From NCBI RefSeq assembly GCF_014041935.1, contig NZ_CP059491.1, forward strand, positions 1,426,001 to 1,490,000: DNA of 64,000 bases, in the 5' to 3' direction. Below are positions 44,202-50,271 of the stretch, one piece after another. Position 1 is the stretch's first letter; every line of letters starts with the position of its first letter. The notes beneath the pieces were generated by a model. It had not been told where the DNA came from and ran no database searches. It was given only the letters and a program-made list of their open reading frames with translations. This DNA is from Gordonia jinghuaiqii. GTDB lineage: Bacteria > Actinomycetota > Actinomycetes > Mycobacteriales > Mycobacteriaceae. A program made the translations under genes and the position numbers.

Positions 44202-44867
44202 GTGCATGCCCTCGTCATCGACGATGACCTCCGCGCGGCGGAGGCGGTCCGCCGCCTGCTCGTCGACGACGGCTGGGCGGTGACAGCGGCGCACGACGGC
44301 CCGGACGGGTTGTGGCGCGCCACCGAGGGTCACTACGACGTCATCCTGCTGGACATGGTGGCGCCGGAGACGACCGGGAACCGGGTGTTGCAGAGCCTGC
44401 GCGAACGCGCTGTCTGGACGCCGGTACTGATGTTGAGCGCCACGGGCGGAGACGACGACGAGGTATACGCACTCGACAGCGGCGCCGACGACTACCTGGT
44501 GAAACCGATCTCCGGGGCCGTGCTGAGGGCGCGACTGCGGGCGTTGCTGCGACGCGGGGCACCGGAACGGCCCGCGACCCTGCGGGTCGGCGATCTCTCC
44601 CTCGATCCCGCCGAGCACCTCGTGCGGCGGGGCGAGACACCCATCAGCCTCACCCCGCGCGAGTACGCGGTGCTCGAATGTCTCATCCGCCACGCGGGCA
44701 CCGTCGTCTCCAAGTCCACGATCCTGCACTCGGTGTGGGACGAGAACTACGAGGGTGATCCCAACATCATCGAGGTGTACGTCGGCTGTCTGCGCAAGCG
44801 CATCGACCAGCCGTTCGGGGTCCGCAGCATCGAGACCGTTCGGGGTGCGGGCTACCGCATCCGCTGA
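44202..44867 (+). CDS. OmpR-family response regulator without adjacent kinase
   Basis: A 221-residue response regulator. The receiver domain has the acidic triad DDD at residues 7-9, phospho-acceptor D51 in ILLDMVAPETTG, the switch region LMLSATGGDDD and the lysine in DDYLVKPIS. The C-terminal winged helix ends GVRSIETVRGAGYRIR, as in OmpR/PhoB. No histidine kinase lies on either side: the upstream gene is a DNA glycosylase, the downstream one a TPP enzyme 61 bases away on the same strand. It may control that operon. GTG 44202 is the only reasonable start. Confidence 0.88.
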   Translation: MHALVIDDDLRAAEAVRRLLVDDGWAVTAAHDGPDGLWRATEGHYDVILLDMVAPETTGNRVLQSLRERAVWTPVLMLSATGGDDDEVYALDSGADDYLVKPISGAVLRARLRALLRRGAPERPATLRVGDLSLDPAEHLVRRGETPISLTPREYAVLECLIRHAGTVVSKSTILHSVWDENYEGDPNIIEVYVGCLRKRIDQPFGVRSIETVRGAGYRIR

Positions 44868-44928
44868 CCGACCGACGCCCGCGGACGCCTTCAGCGCTCC
44901 TTCAGGTTCACCGTCGCAGAGTTGGTGT

Positions 44929-46710
44929 ATGGCTGTGACGGCGGGTTCGGTCCGGACGCCCACTTTGTCCGAAAAGAGTGGCGCCGCTGTGCCGACGGTC
45001 GCGGATCACATTGTCGGCGAACTCATCGCGGCCTCGATGACCACCGCGTTCGGCGTGCACGGCGCCAACATCGAGGACCTCTACGACGCCGCGATCCGCG
45101 CGTCGGGGATGACGGCCGTCGTCGCCAAGCACGAGTTCGCCGCCGGGGCGATGGCCGACGGCGCCGCGCGCATCACCGGCATCCCGGGGGTGGTGCTGAC
45201 GACCTCGGGCGGCGGCGCGATGAACGTCGTGCCCGCGCTGGCCGAGGCATACGACAGTCGCGTGCCCGTGCTCGCACTGATCGGCACCGCCCCGTCCGCG
45301 CTGGTCGGTCGGGGAGCGTTCCAGGACATGCTCTGCCCGCCGGACACCGTCGACGTCGCCGGGTTGATGTCGGCCGTCACCGGATCGTGTTCGGTGGTCG
45401 GGCACGCCGGCGAGGTGCCCGTGGCGCTCGCGACGGCGTTCGCGACCTTGCGCCGTGGTCTGCCGGCCGCGGTGTTGCTTCCCAAGGACGTACAGTCCGC
45501 GGCCTTTCCCGGCCGGCCGCGGCCTCCTCCGCCCGGGTGGGCGTCGGGGGGTGGCGCGCCCGTCCCCGGGACGGCCCTCGACACCGTCGCCGACGAGCTG
45601 TGTGACATCGTCGAATCCGGTGGCGCAACCGTCATCTGGGTGGGCGCCGAGGCGTCGGTGGCCGGTGTCGGGCCGCAGGTCGATGACCTCGCCTGCGCGC
45701 TCGGGGCAGTCGTCGTCGCAGCACCGGGAGGTCGTGACATCCTCACCGACGCGGACGGTTTCGCGGGTGTCACCGGGGTCATGGGTCATCCGTCGGCACA
45801 TCGCGCCATCGCGGAGTCGACCGCATGTCTGGTGCTCGGGTGCCGCCTGACGATGACCGACCGGGGCGGCCTCGACGACACGCTTCCACGACTTCGGCTG
45901 ACCCACCTCGGTTCCGAGCCGCCGCGCATGCCGGGCCAGGTAGACCACGTGCCGTGCACCGACCTGCGGGCGGGTGTGGCACGACTGACCGACGGCATCC
46001 GGCGACGCCTCGGCGCCGGCGCCCGGCAGCGCGAGCCGGTCGACGTGACCCATCTGGCCGTGCCGCCACGCCCGTCCGGACCGGACATACGCACGCCGGA
46101 CATACGCACGCCGGACATACGCACGCCGGACATGCGCACCGTCGTCGAGTCGATCGGGGCCGCGCTGCCCCCGGACACCACGGTTTTCGCCGACGCCGGA
46201 AATGCCGGTGCCGCAGCCATTCACCACCTTCCCTTCGGGCACGGCCGATTCGTCGTGGCGCTGGGCATGGGCGGTATGGGATACGCCCTGGCGGCCGGCG
46301 TCGGCAACGCCATCCGCTCGCTGGCCGACCCGGAACGCTCGCGCACCGTCGTCATCGCCGGCGACGGGGCGTTCTTCATGCACGGGATGGAGATCCACAC
46401 CGCGGTCGAGCACTCGGCACCGGTCACGGTCGTCCTCCTGAACAACAACGCACACGCGATGTGCATCACCCGGGAACACGCCTTCTTCCCGAAGACGCCC
46501 AGCATCAACAGATTCCGGCCCACCGATCTCGCCGGCGGATTGGCGGCCATGTTCGACGGACTGGCCGTGGCCCGCGCATCCGACCCCGCCTCGGTGCGGG
46601 CCGCCGCCGCCGACCTGCTCTCCCGGTCCGGTCCCAACTGCCTTGTCGTGGACGTCGATCCCGACGAGATCCCACCGTTCGCCCCACTCATCCCGAAAGG
46701 ATCGCCATGA
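44929..46710 (+). CDS. Thiamine-diphosphate-dependent enzyme (acetolactate synthase-like), first gene of a four-gene operon
   Basis: A 593-residue three-domain ThDP enzyme. E69 in VAKHEFAAGAMADGAARITG is the cofactor-activating glutamate, and the Mg-ThDP motif starts GDG at 478-480 and ends NNN at 505-507 (GDGAFFMHGMEIHTAVEHSA, then VVLLNNN). Middle-domain ridge residues around VVVAAPGGRDIL lack clear FAD-binding features. It probably decarboxylates a 2-oxo acid and joins or transfers the two-carbon or larger unit. Odd features are a proline-rich loop after residue 200 and a 15-bp repeat coding PDIRT four times near residue 390. The next three genes overlap in a chain of ATGA junctions. Confidence 0.8.
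   Translation: MAVTAGSVRTPTLSEKSGAAVPTVADHIVGELIAASMTTAFGVHGANIEDLYDAAIRASGMTAVVAKHEFAAGAMADGAARITGIPGVVLTTSGGGAMNVVPALAEAYDSRVPVLALIGTAPSALVGRGAFQDMLCPPDTVDVAGLMSAVTGSCSVVGHAGEVPVALATAFATLRRGLPAAVLLPKDVQSAAFPGRPRPPPPGWASGGGAPVPGTALDTVADELCDIVESGGATVIWVGAEASVAGVGPQVDDLACALGAVVVAAPGGRDILTDADGFAGVTGVMGHPSAHRAIAESTACLVLGCRLTMTDRGGLDDTLPRLRLTHLGSEPPRMPGQVDHVPCTDLRAGVARLTDGIRRRLGAGARQREPVDVTHLAVPPRPSGPDIRTPDIRTPDIRTPDMRTVVESIGAALPPDTTVFADAGNAGAAAIHHLPFGHGRFVVALGMGGMGYALAAGVGNAIRSLADPERSRTVVIAGDGAFFMHGMEIHTAVEHSAPVTVVLLNNNAHAMCITREHAFFPKTPSINRFRPTDLAGGLAAMFDGLAVARASDPASVRAAAADLLSRSGPNCLVVDVDPDEIPPFAPLIPKGSP
46081..46139 (+). repeat. 15-bp in-frame tandem repeat, four copies
   Basis: CCGGACATACGCACG is repeated three times and a fourth copy carries ATG for ATA. 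It codes PDIRT x3 then PDMRT at the linker before the C-terminal ThDP domain. The near identity of the copies suggests recent expansion. Confidence 0.85.
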
Positions 46711-47372
46711 CAGCAGTACAGCCCGTCCTCGCCGACCTCGGCGAGGAGGCCATGACCCTGGCCGGTCTGGTCCGCATCGAGTCTCACCCGCGCCCGATCG
46801 CGACACCCCTCATACTGGACAGGCTGCGGTCGGTCTATCCCCACGACCAGCTCTACGGCGAGTTCTGCCCGGTACAGGGATACGTCGACGCTCCACCCCG
46901 GGAGCTGTTCGACTGGCTGTCGGACACGCGATCGCTCGCTGAATGGACATACAGTCTCCGGGATCTGACCGAGACCGGGGAACCGGGCCTGTGGGTCGGG
47001 GAGGATCGGCTCGGGGCCGACACCAAGATTTACGCTCGCACGGTCGCCAATCCCGATGCGATGACCGTGGATTACCACTGCGCATGGGATCAGGGTCGCC
47101 ACCTGTGGATGATCTATCTGATGCGGGTCGTCGACGCGCAGGTGGTGTTCGACCGACCCGGTTCGGTTGTCCTCTGGGTGAACTGCCATCACCCGTTCTA
47201 CGACGAGAACCCTTTCCCGGAGAGCGCCCCGCCCGACCGTCCGGTATGGGTGGGGGATTTCTGGGAGACGTTCGCGCCCGGACATCAGATCGAACTCGAC
47301 AACCTCACCGCCATCGCCGAATACCGGCATCACAACGGTCTTCCCCTCACCCCCGATTGGATGCGGTCATGA
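46707..47372 (+). CDS. SRPBCC family protein, cyclase/aromatase-like, second gene of the operon
   Basis: A 221-residue protein. After about 45 residues of lead sequence (MTAVQPVLADLGEEAMTLAG and following) a START-fold region begins at YGEFCPVQGYVDAPPRELFDWL, with LAEWTYSLRDLTE and later HLWMIYLMRVVDAQVVFDRPG. Polyketide cyclase/dehydrase relatives use this fold to hold reactive intermediates. ATG 46707 overlaps the ThDP-enzyme stop as ATGA, and AAAGGA lies 6 bases upstream. It is the only non-enzyme-like member of the operon and may be a cyclase or carrier. Exact role unknown. Confidence 0.7.
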   Translation: MTAVQPVLADLGEEAMTLAGLVRIESHPRPIATPLILDRLRSVYPHDQLYGEFCPVQGYVDAPPRELFDWLSDTRSLAEWTYSLRDLTETGEPGLWVGEDRLGADTKIYARTVANPDAMTVDYHCAWDQGRHLWMIYLMRVVDAQVVFDRPGSVVLWVNCHHPFYDENPFPESAPPDRPVWVGDFWETFAPGHQIELDNLTAIAEYRHHNGLPLTPDWMRS

Positions 47373-48394
47373 CACCCACGCGGATCAACCTGATCGACGT
47401 CGCCACGTACCTACCCGAGAATCGCGTGACCGCAGCGTATTACGCGCAGTTCGCCGAGGACGACACACTCGCGGACAATGTGATGTTCCGTGCCCCGGCG
47501 TTCCGTCGACATGCGGCCGACGGGGAGACGTCGGCAGACATGATGATCTCTGCCGCGCGTGGGCTGTTCGAGCGGCACGGCGACGACTACCTCGACGACG
47601 TCGATGTGGTCCTCACCCACAGTCAGCTGCCCGAGGTACCCGTGCGCGGTTGCGGCGGGGAGTTGGCCTATCGTCTCGGCATCCGGCCCACGACGGTCCT
47701 CGACGTGCACAACGGCGGATGCGCCGCGTTCATCCACATGATCGATATCGCTGCGGCGCTGCTGCGGGCCAGGGGAGGACGCAAGGCGGTGCTCGGGCTG
47801 GCGCAGAACAGTGCGGGTCAGGCGTTCACCCAGGAGCAGGTCCGCGGCAAGGCACAGGCCGCCATCCCGGGCGATGGCGCGGCAATGGCCGTGGTCACCG
47901 TCGACGACGAGAACGGAAGCCCGATCGTGGGATTGCGATGCCATTCCTTCGGGCAGTACTCCGGCGATATGACCGGGGTTTCCGACCCGCCGCGCAAGTA
48001 CTGGGAGGCGGGACCCGGCCAGCTGCACATCGGGTTCACCGAGTCCAAGATCGCGAAGGTGCTGGCGCGGGGCAACCGGATGGTGCCCGAGGTCGCGATC
48101 GAGGTGGCCGACGAGATCGGCGTCGCGCCGTCGGACCTCGACTGGCTGGTGACCAACCAGCCGAGCCGTATCTTCCTGCGCAACTGGCGTGAGGCGCTGG
48201 AACTCCCGGAAAGTCATCACCCCGACACCTTCGACGAGTACGGCAACCTGTTCGCCGTCGGGATCCCGGTCACCCTCGACGACGCCGTCAACGATGGGCG
48301 CATCGGCGAGGGCGACATCGTGATGACCGCCGCCTTCGCGCATGCCGGCGACTTCGCCGCCGCCGCAGCGCTGAGATGGGGCGGACGGCCATGA
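47369..48394 (+). CDS. KAS III-like (3-oxoacyl-ACP synthase III family) protein, third gene of the operon
   Basis: A 341-residue thiolase-fold enzyme. The nucleophile is C118 in VLDVHNGGCAAFIHMIDIAAAL (two abutting parts), and the C-terminal asparagine is N293 in EYGNLFAVGIP. The middle catalytic position, usually His in PHQAN of FabH, reads TNQPSR here, so N263 replaces the histidine. Loss of that His usually impairs decarboxylating condensation but can leave acyl transfer. This points to an acyltransferase-type KAS III rather than a fatty-acid initiator. ATG 47369 overlaps the preceding stop as ATGA. Substrates would be an acyl-thioester and the product of the ThDP enzyme; this is inference. 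Confidence 0.78.
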   Translation: MTPTRINLIDVATYLPENRVTAAYYAQFAEDDTLADNVMFRAPAFRRHAADGETSADMMISAARGLFERHGDDYLDDVDVVLTHSQLPEVPVRGCGGELAYRLGIRPTTVLDVHNGGCAAFIHMIDIAAALLRARGGRKAVLGLAQNSAGQAFTQEQVRGKAQAAIPGDGAAMAVVTVDDENGSPIVGLRCHSFGQYSGDMTGVSDPPRKYWEAGPGQLHIGFTESKIAKVLARGNRMVPEVAIEVADEIGVAPSDLDWLVTNQPSRIFLRNWREALELPESHHPDTFDEYGNLFAVGIPVTLDDAVNDGRIGEGDIVMTAAFAHAGDFAAAAALRWGGRP

Positions 48395-49428
48395 GTCCGC
48401 CGGGCGGCCCTGGGGAGCGGGGGTGGACCGACGTCCGGCTCGACCTCAACGAGTCGGCCTACGCGCCGCTGCCGTCGGTGGCGGCGGCGATGCGGGCCGC
48501 CGTCCTCGAGTCCCACCGGTATCCCGAGTTCCGGCCGGAACACACCCGTGCGCACATCGCCGCCCACGTGGACGTCCCGGCCGGGGCGGTCACGGTCGGG
48601 CCGGGCGCCACCGGGGTGGCGCTGGCGGTGCTGCAGTGTGCGTTCCGTCGTGCCCTCGCGGCAGGAACCACCACACCGGCTCTGGTCACCTCGACACCCA
48701 CCTTCGACGGTTACCCGATCCTCGCGAGGATGCTCGGGATGCGGATGGACACGGTCGATCTCGCCGACGACGGCACCGTCGACCTCGATCGTGTGCGTGC
48801 CGCGATCACCTCCGACACCGCGGTGGTGGTGATCTGCTCGCCACACAACCCGACCGGCTCGGTGGTGGACGAAGCCGACCTCGACCGGTTCCTCGCCGAG
48901 GTCCCGTCGCACGTGCTGACCGTTGTCGACGAGGCGTACGTCGAATTCGCCGAGGAACCTCCGGACCTGCGGCGGCTGATCCGGCACCGTGGCGTCGTGG
49001 TCCTGCGGACGTTCTCCAAGGCCTACGGACTGGCCTCCCTCCGCGTCGGGTACGGGATCGGGCCCGCGGAGGTGATCGCCGCCCTGCGCGGCCACGAGGT
49101 GCCGTTCGCGGTCGGGGGGATCGCGATGGCGGCCGTACCCGTCGCGCTCGACGCCGAAGACGAACTCGCCCAGCGGGTCCGGTCGATGAGGATCGAGCGG
49201 GACCGGATGGCCGGCATCCTCGGCACGATCGGATGCCCGGTCCTGCCGAGCCACGCCAACTTCCTGTTCCTCCCCGGGCCCGACGGTGTGGCCGTCGGCC
49301 GGATGCTGCGCGGTTGCGGTGTGGCCGTCAAGCAGTGCGGTGCGGCCGGCACGCGGATCACCGTGGGTGACCGTGCGGGTACCGACCGCCTCGTCGGTGC
49401 GCTACGCCTCGTGTCGCAGTCCGCGTAG
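48391..49428 (+). CDS. HisC-like class I/II aminotransferase, fourth gene of the operon
   Basis: A 345-residue PLP enzyme of the histidinol-phosphate/aromatic aminotransferase group. LDLNESAYAPLPSVAAAM is the N-terminal signature, VVVICSPHNPTGSVV and VVDEAYVEF the cofactor-binding strands, and K210 in RTFSKAYGLASLRVGYG the Schiff-base lysine. It transfers an amino group to a keto product, perhaps that made by the two preceding enzymes. ATG 48391 overlaps the KAS III-like stop as ATGA. Its own stop TAG lies inside the first unit of a 24-bp tandem repeat. The true hisC is normally in the his operon, so a separate role is likely. Confidence 0.82.
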   Translation: MSPPGGPGERGWTDVRLDLNESAYAPLPSVAAAMRAAVLESHRYPEFRPEHTRAHIAAHVDVPAGAVTVGPGATGVALAVLQCAFRRALAAGTTTPALVTSTPTFDGYPILARMLGMRMDTVDLADDGTVDLDRVRAAITSDTAVVVICSPHNPTGSVVDEADLDRFLAEVPSHVLTVVDEAYVEFAEEPPDLRRLIRHRGVVVLRTFSKAYGLASLRVGYGIGPAEVIAALRGHEVPFAVGGIAMAAVPVALDAEDELAQRVRSMRIERDRMAGILGTIGCPVLPSHANFLFLPGPDGVAVGRMLRGCGVAVKQCGAAGTRITVGDRAGTDRLVGALRLVSQSA

Positions 49429-49500
49429 CGGCAGATGTCGCAGTCCGCGTAGCGGCTTGTGTGGCAGTCCGCGTAGCGGCTGATGTGGCAGTCCGCGTGG
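49415..49500. repeat. 24-bp tandem repeat, about 3.6 copies, spanning a stop codon
   Basis: Units at 49415-49438, 49439-49462, 49463-49486 and a partial one at 49487-49500 share GCAGTCCGCGTAGCGGC. The TAG in unit 1 is the stop of the aminotransferase gene, and each full unit repeats that TAG. The array fills most of the gap before the next promoter. Confidence 0.85.
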
Positions 49501-49521: not shown

Positions 49522-50271
49522 GTGACGGCGACGACTCGGCAGAAGATCCTCATCACCGGTGCCAGCTCGGGGCTCGGGGCGGGCATGGCCCGACGATTCG
49601 CCGCGCAGGGGCGTTCGGTGGCTCTCGCCGCCCGGCGGCTGGAGAACCTCCGGACACTGGCCGACGAGATCCGGCCGTCGGCCGCGCAGGTCGCGCTCGC
49701 GCAGCTCGATGTCACCGACGTCGGCGCCGTGCCGGTGGTGTTCGGGCAGCTCGCAGATGAACTCGGCGGTCTCGACCGCGTGATCGTCAACGCAGGTCTC
49801 GGGAAGGGCGCGCCGATCGGAACGGGCAAGGCGGCGGCCAACATCGAGACCGTACAGACCAATCTCGTCGGTGCGCTGGCCCAGGCCGAAGCTGCGCTCG
49901 AGATCTTCCGCGCCCAGAATGCCGGGCATCTCGTGCTGGTCAGTTCCATCTCGGGGGTGCGTGGAATGCCCAGGGCGCAGGCCGCGTACTCGGCGTCGAA
50001 AGCGGGTCTCACCGCGCTCGGGCAGGGACTTCAGGCCGAGTTCGCGAACTCGCCGATCACGGTGTCGATCGTGGCGCCGGGGTACATCGAGACCGACATC
50101 AACCGCGGGGTCAAGACCTCGCTCATGGTCGACACCGACAAGGGCGTCGACGCGATGGTGAAGGCCATCGAGGCGGAGAAGTCCTGGGCGCCGGTGCCGG
50201 CGTGGCCGTGGACTCCGATCGCGGCTGCGCTCAAGTACCTGCCGGCGTCGGTCAGCCGCCGCTTTGTCTGA
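49522..50271 (+). CDS. SDR family oxidoreductase
   Basis: A 249-residue classical SDR: ILITGASSGLGAGMARRF for the nucleotide, DRVIVNAGLGKGAPI in place of NNAG, LVLVSSISGVRGMP for the serine and AAYSASKAGLTALGQGL for Tyr-x3-Lys. It is close to SDRs annotated as acyl or keto reductases, but substrate is unknown. Its stop TGA is contained in the first unit of a 14-bp tandem repeat. It has its own leaderless promoter, although it lies only 93 bases after the four-gene biosynthetic operon and could still serve that pathway. Confidence 0.85.
   Translation: MTATTRQKILITGASSGLGAGMARRFAAQGRSVALAARRLENLRTLADEIRPSAAQVALAQLDVTDVGAVPVVFGQLADELGGLDRVIVNAGLGKGAPIGTGKAAANIETVQTNLVGALAQAEAALEIFRAQNAGHLVLVSSISGVRGMPRAQAAYSASKAGLTALGQGLQAEFANSPITVSIVAPGYIETDINRGVKTSLMVDTDKGVDAMVKAIEAEKSWAPVPAWPWTPIAAALKYLPASVSRRFV

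Follow-up and report, generated by a model that had tools for sequence, protein, structure and literature searches.

We analyzed a 64,000-nucleotide stretch of the Gordonia jinghuaiqii chromosome (the window; contig NZ_CP059491.1, positions 1426001-1490000 of a single-contig genome of 5,184,113 bases) that carries a compact group of five genes, all on the plus strand. The first of them starts with GTG and encodes an OmpR/PhoB-type response regulator with Response_reg and Trans_reg_C Pfam domains (44202..44867). It is followed by the genes for a thiamine diphosphate (ThDP)-dependent enzyme with three TPP-enzyme Pfam domains (T, 44929..46710), an SRPBCC protein (S, 46707..47372), a condensing enzyme resembling ketoacyl-acyl carrier protein synthase III (KAS III; K, 47369..48394), and a HisC-like class I/II aminotransferase with the Pfam domain Aminotran_1_2 (A, 48391..49428). 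The sequence and its list of open reading frames confirmed the layout described in the original prediction for this locus: each of the T/S, S/K, and K/A junctions consists of ATGA, a 4-base overlap of start and stop codons, and 61 bases separate the stop codon of the regulator from the start of T. The gene content also bears out the earlier view that the operon holds no carrier protein or modular synthase.

Among proteins of solved structure, the SRPBCC protein is closest to CqsB2, which works without a cofactor as the carbazole synthase in the carquinostatin pathway (PMC7466098), in agreement with its earlier classification as a protein of the cyclase type. CqsB2 (6ipv) was the sole significant match of S in the PDB (phmmer E 4.6e-43), and the predicted model of S (mean predicted local distance difference test score, 85.8) pointed to the same protein as its top fold match (E 7.6e-20), with a plant abscisic-acid receptor as the second best (E 4.6e-7); S had zero matches in both Pfam and NCBIfam. 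Four of the five CqsB2 residues named in the literature (PMC7466098) are retained in S, namely Y144, Y172, H206, and E209, and the fifth, E105, is replaced by Asp. Across 123 aligned S rows this position holds Asp in 111 (the window included), Glu in 10, and a gap in 2. The Nostoc loci L075 and L076, which belong to the CqsB2 clade, are not among the Glu rows; since the residue thus varies within that clade, we do not regard it as clade-defining.

The three neighboring enzymes resemble further members of the same machinery, T being like CqsB3/NzsH, K like CqsB1/NzsJ, and A like CqsB7. As a reference we used L066, a contig of Streptomyces achromogenes in which the S-type protein and CqsB2 share 100% identity over 184 residues. 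There K-S-T is followed by genes for a squalene/phytoene-synthase-family protein, another KAS III, and an aminotransferase, in this order. Identity to the L066 counterparts amounted to 35% for T (596 residues), 38% for S, 30% for K, and 39% for A, and K was closer to the protein at the CqsB1 position (142 bits) than to that at the CqsB5 position (63.5 bits). Pfam matches exceeded the curated cut-offs for the regulator, T, A, and the C-terminal KAS III domain of K, with the N-terminal KAS III domain slightly below (23.1 against 24 bits). The listed NCBIfam matches of the window proteins were all below their curated cut-offs and therefore name superfamilies, not functions.

The catalytic motifs of T are intact, with the catalytic Glu69, the GDG motif, and Asn506 present in 113 of 113 aligned rows; its best PDB matches were the ThDP enzymes BbmA/CsmA. 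For A, the best NCBIfam model was PRK03321 (below cut-off), the best PDB match was named a putative phenylalanine aminotransferase, and the best paralogue within the same genome was 39% identical. The catalytic residues of FabH are Cys, His, and Asn. In K the corresponding residues are Cys118, Asn263 in place of the His, and Asn293, and 108 of 123 K sequences have Asn where FabH has its catalytic His, an assignment that rests on sequence alignment, not on a residue-level structure comparison. The predicted model of K adopts a KAS III fold. Since the His is changed although homology, fold, Cys, and Asn are kept, we place K in a sister clade that would work like CqsB1 without being CqsB1 itself. 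From these alignments, K, T, and A sequences shorter than 85% of the query and rows with internal stops were dropped.

The gene order is widely conserved. Homologues of S occurred in 34 of 59 genomes of the genus and in 41 of 397 genomes of the order. A protein search gave 1,073 at E <= 0.001 among 1,794 candidates; of the named S proteins, that of Gordonia westfalica is nearest (86%). A scan of species genomes gave 500 confirmed stretches, of which the 80 nearest CqsB2 were retained as named loci. Order was counted within set distances and not by strict adjacency (in L092, for instance, counted as T-S-K-A, T lies ~3.7 kb ahead of S). On this basis 48 of the 80 loci showed T-S-K-A on one strand, one of them with an additional K: 23 from Mycobacterium, 17 from Nocardia, five from Mycolicibacterium, and one each from Segniliparus, Antrihabitans, and a bin labelled Acidobacteriaceae. 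The remaining loci were ordered T-S-K (13), T-K-S (6), S-K-T (6), K-S-T-A (4), K-S-T (1), S-K (1), and S-K-A (1). Within Gordonia, 19 of 20 loci had T-S-K-A (with T split in two in L018), and L034 had S only. The 4-base overlaps recur there as well, at T>S in 16, at S>K in 16, and at K>A in 18 of the 19 T-S-K-A loci by a rough estimator. With T-S-K-A recurring at this frequency among the named loci (48 of 80) and within Gordonia (19 of 20), the arrangement is beyond chance. The analysis supports the view in the original prediction of a coherent biosynthetic operon, and the check it suggested, a search for the same order in Gordonia, Nocardia, and mycobacteria, gave a positive result. All five genes are under purifying selection between the window and the Gordonia locus L016, the ratio of nonsynonymous to synonymous substitution rates (one pair per gene) being 0.17 for the regulator, 0.22 for T, 0.12 for S, 0.20 for K, and 0.27 for A.

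Several loci depart from this pattern. S and K were found with T, mostly in the order S-K-T, in L083, L085, L088, L089, L090, L093, L127, and L137, bins carrying the non-actinobacterial labels Legionella, Gammaproteobacteria, Polyangium, delta proteobacterium, Planctomycetes, and Bdellovibrionota; as the three genes occur in bins labelled as other phyla, the module extends beyond actinobacteria. L121, the bin labelled Acidobacteriaceae, holds a regulator, a kinase, and T-S-K-A, falls inside the Gordonia/Tsukamurella clade, and is perhaps a misbinned actinobacterial contig. In some Gordonia species the operon seems to be decaying, because the S genes of L032, L035, L182, and L183 are broken: the second G018 copy and G048 each carry a single in-frame stop, the gene of G005 is split into three, and that of G003 retains residues 170-221 only. 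A second form of the Gordonia operon comes without the regulator pair (L029-L033, L035, L185, and L186). A GMC-type oxidoreductase gene lies nearby in all eight of these loci, and an AMP-dependent ligase gene in six (L029-L033 and L185), which would fit the activation of an acid. In Mycolicibacterium litorale (L094, 11816-14901), genes for an AMP-binding ligase and an MMPL-family transporter directly follow K. Such neighbors fit the activation and export of an acyl product and prove neither.

The regulator of the window has lost its partner. In all 17 fetched Gordonia relatives with a regulator and T (L016-L028, L182-L184, and L187), a HAMP-HisKA-HATPase kinase gene lies between the two on the opposite strand (with the domains shown for L016 and L024, homology for the others, and the kinase of L183 in two frames), and it is missing here. 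The distance from the regulator stop to T, measured to the aligned T start, is accordingly 1,554-1,714 bases in L016-L028 versus 62 in the window. Since the sensor kinase present in all 17 relatives is missing from the window, we consider the regulator an orphan. A cognate kinase elsewhere in the genome was sought and rejected, the best match being 32% identical (123.8 bits). We then compared the regulator with 12 others, L020 being excluded because it was represented by a stray fragment only. In the receiver domain, 60 positions are invariant among these 12, and the window deviates at 12 of them, against 0-3 of 48-51 for each of the others; in the DNA-binding domain the count was 1 of 48 for the window and 0-2 of 47-49 for the others. 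By this comparison the receiver domain has drifted and the DNA-binding domain has been preserved. The orphan regulator offers a natural example in which the kinase is lost, the receiver drifts, and the DNA target is kept.

TTCAGC-N5-TTCAG is an 11-base direct repeat of a type bound by PhoB/OmpR proteins. A copy of it lies at 44890..44905 on the plus strand, at a conserved position before T, and is a candidate binding site of the regulator. It is the single exact match in the 5.18 Mb genome, it stands at the matching place in 18 of 18 Gordonia loci with a regulator and T (the window included), and it is unmatched in all eight Gordonia loci without a regulator. By coordinates, it also lies ~1.7 kb before S in five more loci (G013, G026, G027, G033, and G049). 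Visual inspection of the alignments suggested a possible -10 element (CAGAGT, 44917..44922, plus strand) that stops 6 bases short of the ATG of T, so that the transcript may be nearly leaderless. Extra copies of the repeat were noted near the operon at L025 12122-12137, L026 12193-12208, and L025 15857-15872. The first two precede the gene of a 157-residue hydrophobic protein of unknown function, which may for that reason be a second target of the regulator in the L025/L026 lineage.

Phylogenetic trees set the window enzymes apart from those of carquinostatin and connected them to a different producer. The S tree was built with rows of <=150 residues and second copies left out, and the A, T, and K trees were built on chosen subsets of 37, 48, and 51 rows. 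S, T, and K of the window lie in clades apart from the CqsB enzymes. In quick, non-bootstrapped trees, Gordonia and Tsukamurella pseudospumae JCM 13375 (L132) clustered together with support of 96 for S (23 rows), 100 for T (13 rows), and 98 for K (14 rows) in the Shimodaira-Hasegawa-like approximate likelihood ratio test; L132 contains T-S-K and no A gene alongside. The lipocarbazoles of T. pseudospumae Acta 1857 are classed among the 3-oxygenated carbazoles (PMC7466098). Because the three trees join Gordonia with a species known for lipocarbazoles, we predict a 1-alkyl-2-methyl-3-hydroxycarbazole of the lipocarbazole type as the product; a long acyl chain and a lone oxygen at C3 are suggested by this kinship only.

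We thus consider it likely that the locus is a four-enzyme carbazole operon, that its product, a carbazole of the lipocarbazole type, carries one oxygen and a long chain and is anchored in the membrane, and that the regulator acts through the repeat. In the characterized pathway, the aminotransferase CqsB7 converts tryptophan to indole-3-pyruvate, the ThDP enzyme CqsB3/NzsH couples it with pyruvate, the KAS III-like CqsB1/NzsJ performs a decarboxylative condensation with an acyl-ACP (acyl carrier protein), and CqsB2/NzsI closes the ring (PMC7466098). The reactions, substrates, and order of steps proposed here are all taken from these homologues. Since CqsB2 is the nearest solved relative of S and the other three enzymes are similar to CqsB3 (T), CqsB1 (K), and CqsB7 (A), A would most likely open the route by transaminating tryptophan to indole-3-pyruvate, acting as a tryptophan aminotransferase. 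K would load an acyl group from acyl-coenzyme A or acyl-ACP of ordinary fatty-acid metabolism and condense it with the acid of the preceding step under loss of CO2. The unstable product of K would then be cyclized and aromatized by S to a 1-alkyl-2-methylcarbazole oxygenated at C3. The operon would probably be switched by the upstream regulator through the direct repeat before T, with the sensor kinase lost in this genome. Under this reading the operon is a pared-down variant of the known bacterial carbazole core, in a form common to many mycobacteria-like bacteria, and not a new kind of pathway; the product class is likely and the exact product uncertain, probably a fat-tailed antioxidant carbazole.

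A number of observations weigh against this reading. The characterized enzymes are just 30-39% identical to the window proteins, E105 of CqsB2 is Asp in S, and K, with Asn for the catalytic His, departs from the usual Cys-His-Asn set of the FabH type. The A tree does not join A with the aminotransferase of L066, and we rejected A as an ortholog of the latter on this ground. A prenyltransferase of the carquinostatin type was unmatched in the genome, in a search run without a positive control genome. Neither a second KAS III nor an ACP is present in the operon, and phmmer gave a single K match in the window (this search did not extend to ACPs encoded elsewhere in the genome). No gene was identified for the reduction expected for a mono-oxygenated carbazole. 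The lipocarbazole strain is Acta 1857, whereas the genome compared is that of JCM 13375, whose locus has no A gene. As for the repeat, its exact form is absent from L121 (regulator, kinase, and T-S-K-A) and from L034 (regulator, kinase, and S only), 45 of the 59 genomes of the genus, some of them without S (such as G001 and G002), contain TTCAGCN5TTCAG, a background rate, and a match with <=1 mismatch arises in 31 of 100 shuffles of the window. Because the pattern itself occurs at background rate, the weight of the repeat rests on its position and conservation.

The expected reduction is where the best-surviving alternative enters. With the known enzymes, the water-based route ends in a catechol; the hydride-based step leading to mono-oxygenated carbazoles is still to be identified (PMC7466098). 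The same machinery might then yield a 3,4-catechol or ortho-quinone carbazole resembling carquinostatin or neocarazostatin, whose side chain might be short or come from a 3-hydroxyacyl group, and no reduction would be needed. Such a redox-neutral outcome has been demonstrated for CqsB2/NzsI (PMC7466098), and the water-handling residues Y144, Y172, and H206 are retained in S. We nevertheless think this rather unlikely, as S, T, and K lie in clades apart from the CqsB enzymes, residues are changed in both S and K, and the nearest species with a known carbazole produces a mono-oxygenated one.

The aromatic substrate raises another alternative, which we judge improbable: phenylpyruvate, 4-hydroxyphenylpyruvate, or another aromatic 2-oxo acid could replace indole-3-pyruvate and give a non-carbazole aromatic, e.g. 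a naphthol. The likeness of A to HisC and phenylalanine aminotransferases would suit such a substrate, and the specificity of T is not readable from 35% identity. Against this, a carbazole synthase is the sole significant PDB match of S with four of five catalytic residues kept, carbazoles are the products of the nearest species for which a product is known, and the C2 of indole is, by chemical reasoning, a far better nucleophile for ring closure. Finally, the original prediction of an undescribed, carrier-free route that ends with the aminotransferase and yields an aminated acyloin or ketone fits the gene families in outline, and a characterized operon of this clade was not found in the open-access literature, but we reject it as very improbable because all four genes have counterparts in one characterized pathway type, that of carbazole biosynthesis, whose opening step is the deamination of tryptophan by the aminotransferase (PMC7466098). 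The counterparts of the four genes, CqsB3, CqsB2, CqsB1, and CqsB7, largely amount to the match with a characterized cluster that the original prediction had named as refuting its claim, although the window genes form a separate clade with active-site differences. The chemistry of the original prediction also has the wrong direction: by analogy, A would take the amino group off tryptophan at the start, and a carbazole is the expected product.

Some features in and around the genes were noted separately. A 15-base tandem repeat of 3.9 copies (window 46081-46139) lies within T and encodes PDIRT repeats in a linker, and a 24-base tandem repeat of 3.6 copies (window 49412-49498) includes the stop codon of A and extends into the following intergenic space. 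The downstream gene for a short-chain dehydrogenase/reductase (SDR; 49522-50271) was considered as a fifth member of the operon or the missing reductase and rejected. Among the 19 regulator-bearing Gordonia loci (the window, L016-L028, L034, L182-L184, and L187), it is found downstream in 13, always with the MutM-side neighbor, and no SDR match above 90 bits was obtained in L025, L026, L028, L034, L184, and L187 or in the eight regulator-less loci. As the gene co-occurs with the MutM-side neighbor and has no such match in the remaining loci, we regard it as part of the chromosomal site.

If the preferred reading of a lipocarbazole-type operon holds, the locus offers a compact four-gene candidate for the machinery of mono-oxygenated carbazoles, links the lipocarbazoles of T. 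pseudospumae to candidate genes, and leads one to expect antioxidants derived from indole, probably lipid-like, in many environmental mycobacteria. It also reveals a condensing enzyme with Asn for the catalytic His across a clade of several phyla. Besides the described Streptomyces pathways, S. cattleya, Sorangium, and Scytonema are further carriers of the carbazole core (PMC7466098), and the available text of that 2020 review makes no mention of Gordonia, Nocardia, or Mycobacterium. In the open-access literature, a scope that leaves out most subscription papers and all preprints, neither this operon clade nor a gene cluster for lipocarbazoles was found described. More speculatively, and with clearly less confidence than in the preferred reading, one might envisage a second, phylogenetically separate carbazole branch, widespread among mycobacteria-like actinobacteria (Gordonia, Nocardia, Mycobacterium, Segniliparus, and Tsukamurella), with a Cys-Asn-Asn condensing enzyme, a modified cyclase, acyl chains drawn straight from fatty-acid metabolism, and two-component control in Gordonia, which would form the genetic basis of mono-oxygenated lipid carbazoles serving as membrane-anchored antioxidants.

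Compared with known systems, the operon is most like the carquinostatin (cqsB) and neocarazostatin (nzs) clusters of Streptomyces, with which it shares ThDP, SRPBCC, KAS III-like, and aminotransferase counterparts and four cyclase residues. It differs from them in order (T-S-K-A versus K-S-T-prenyltransferase-KAS III-A in L066), in having no second KAS III, ACP, or prenyltransferase (CqsB5/B6 supply the 3-hydroxybutyryl group there), and in the residues changed in K and S. With T. pseudospumae the likeness lies in the T-S-K genes that group with Gordonia in all three trees; the window has A, unlike L132, and the link between genes and lipocarbazoles is drawn at the species level. ScyA of scytonemin biosynthesis and the sattazolin acyloin synthases, ThDP enzymes as T is, couple aromatic 2-oxo acids (PMC9822442); T scored 121 bits against the ScyA-related NCBIfam model (cut-off 1000), and the sattazolin likeness is one of description. 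The chlocarbazomycin (chlCz) cluster of Streptomyces tubbatahanensis, likened here by description and not by sequence, additionally holds an ACP and flavin adenine dinucleotide-dependent (FAD) and SDR oxidoreductases, and it too combines a HisC-like transaminase, a ThDP enzyme, a KAS III, and an SRPBCC carbazole synthase, with a mono-hydroxyl carbazole proposed as an intermediate there too (PMC10100901).

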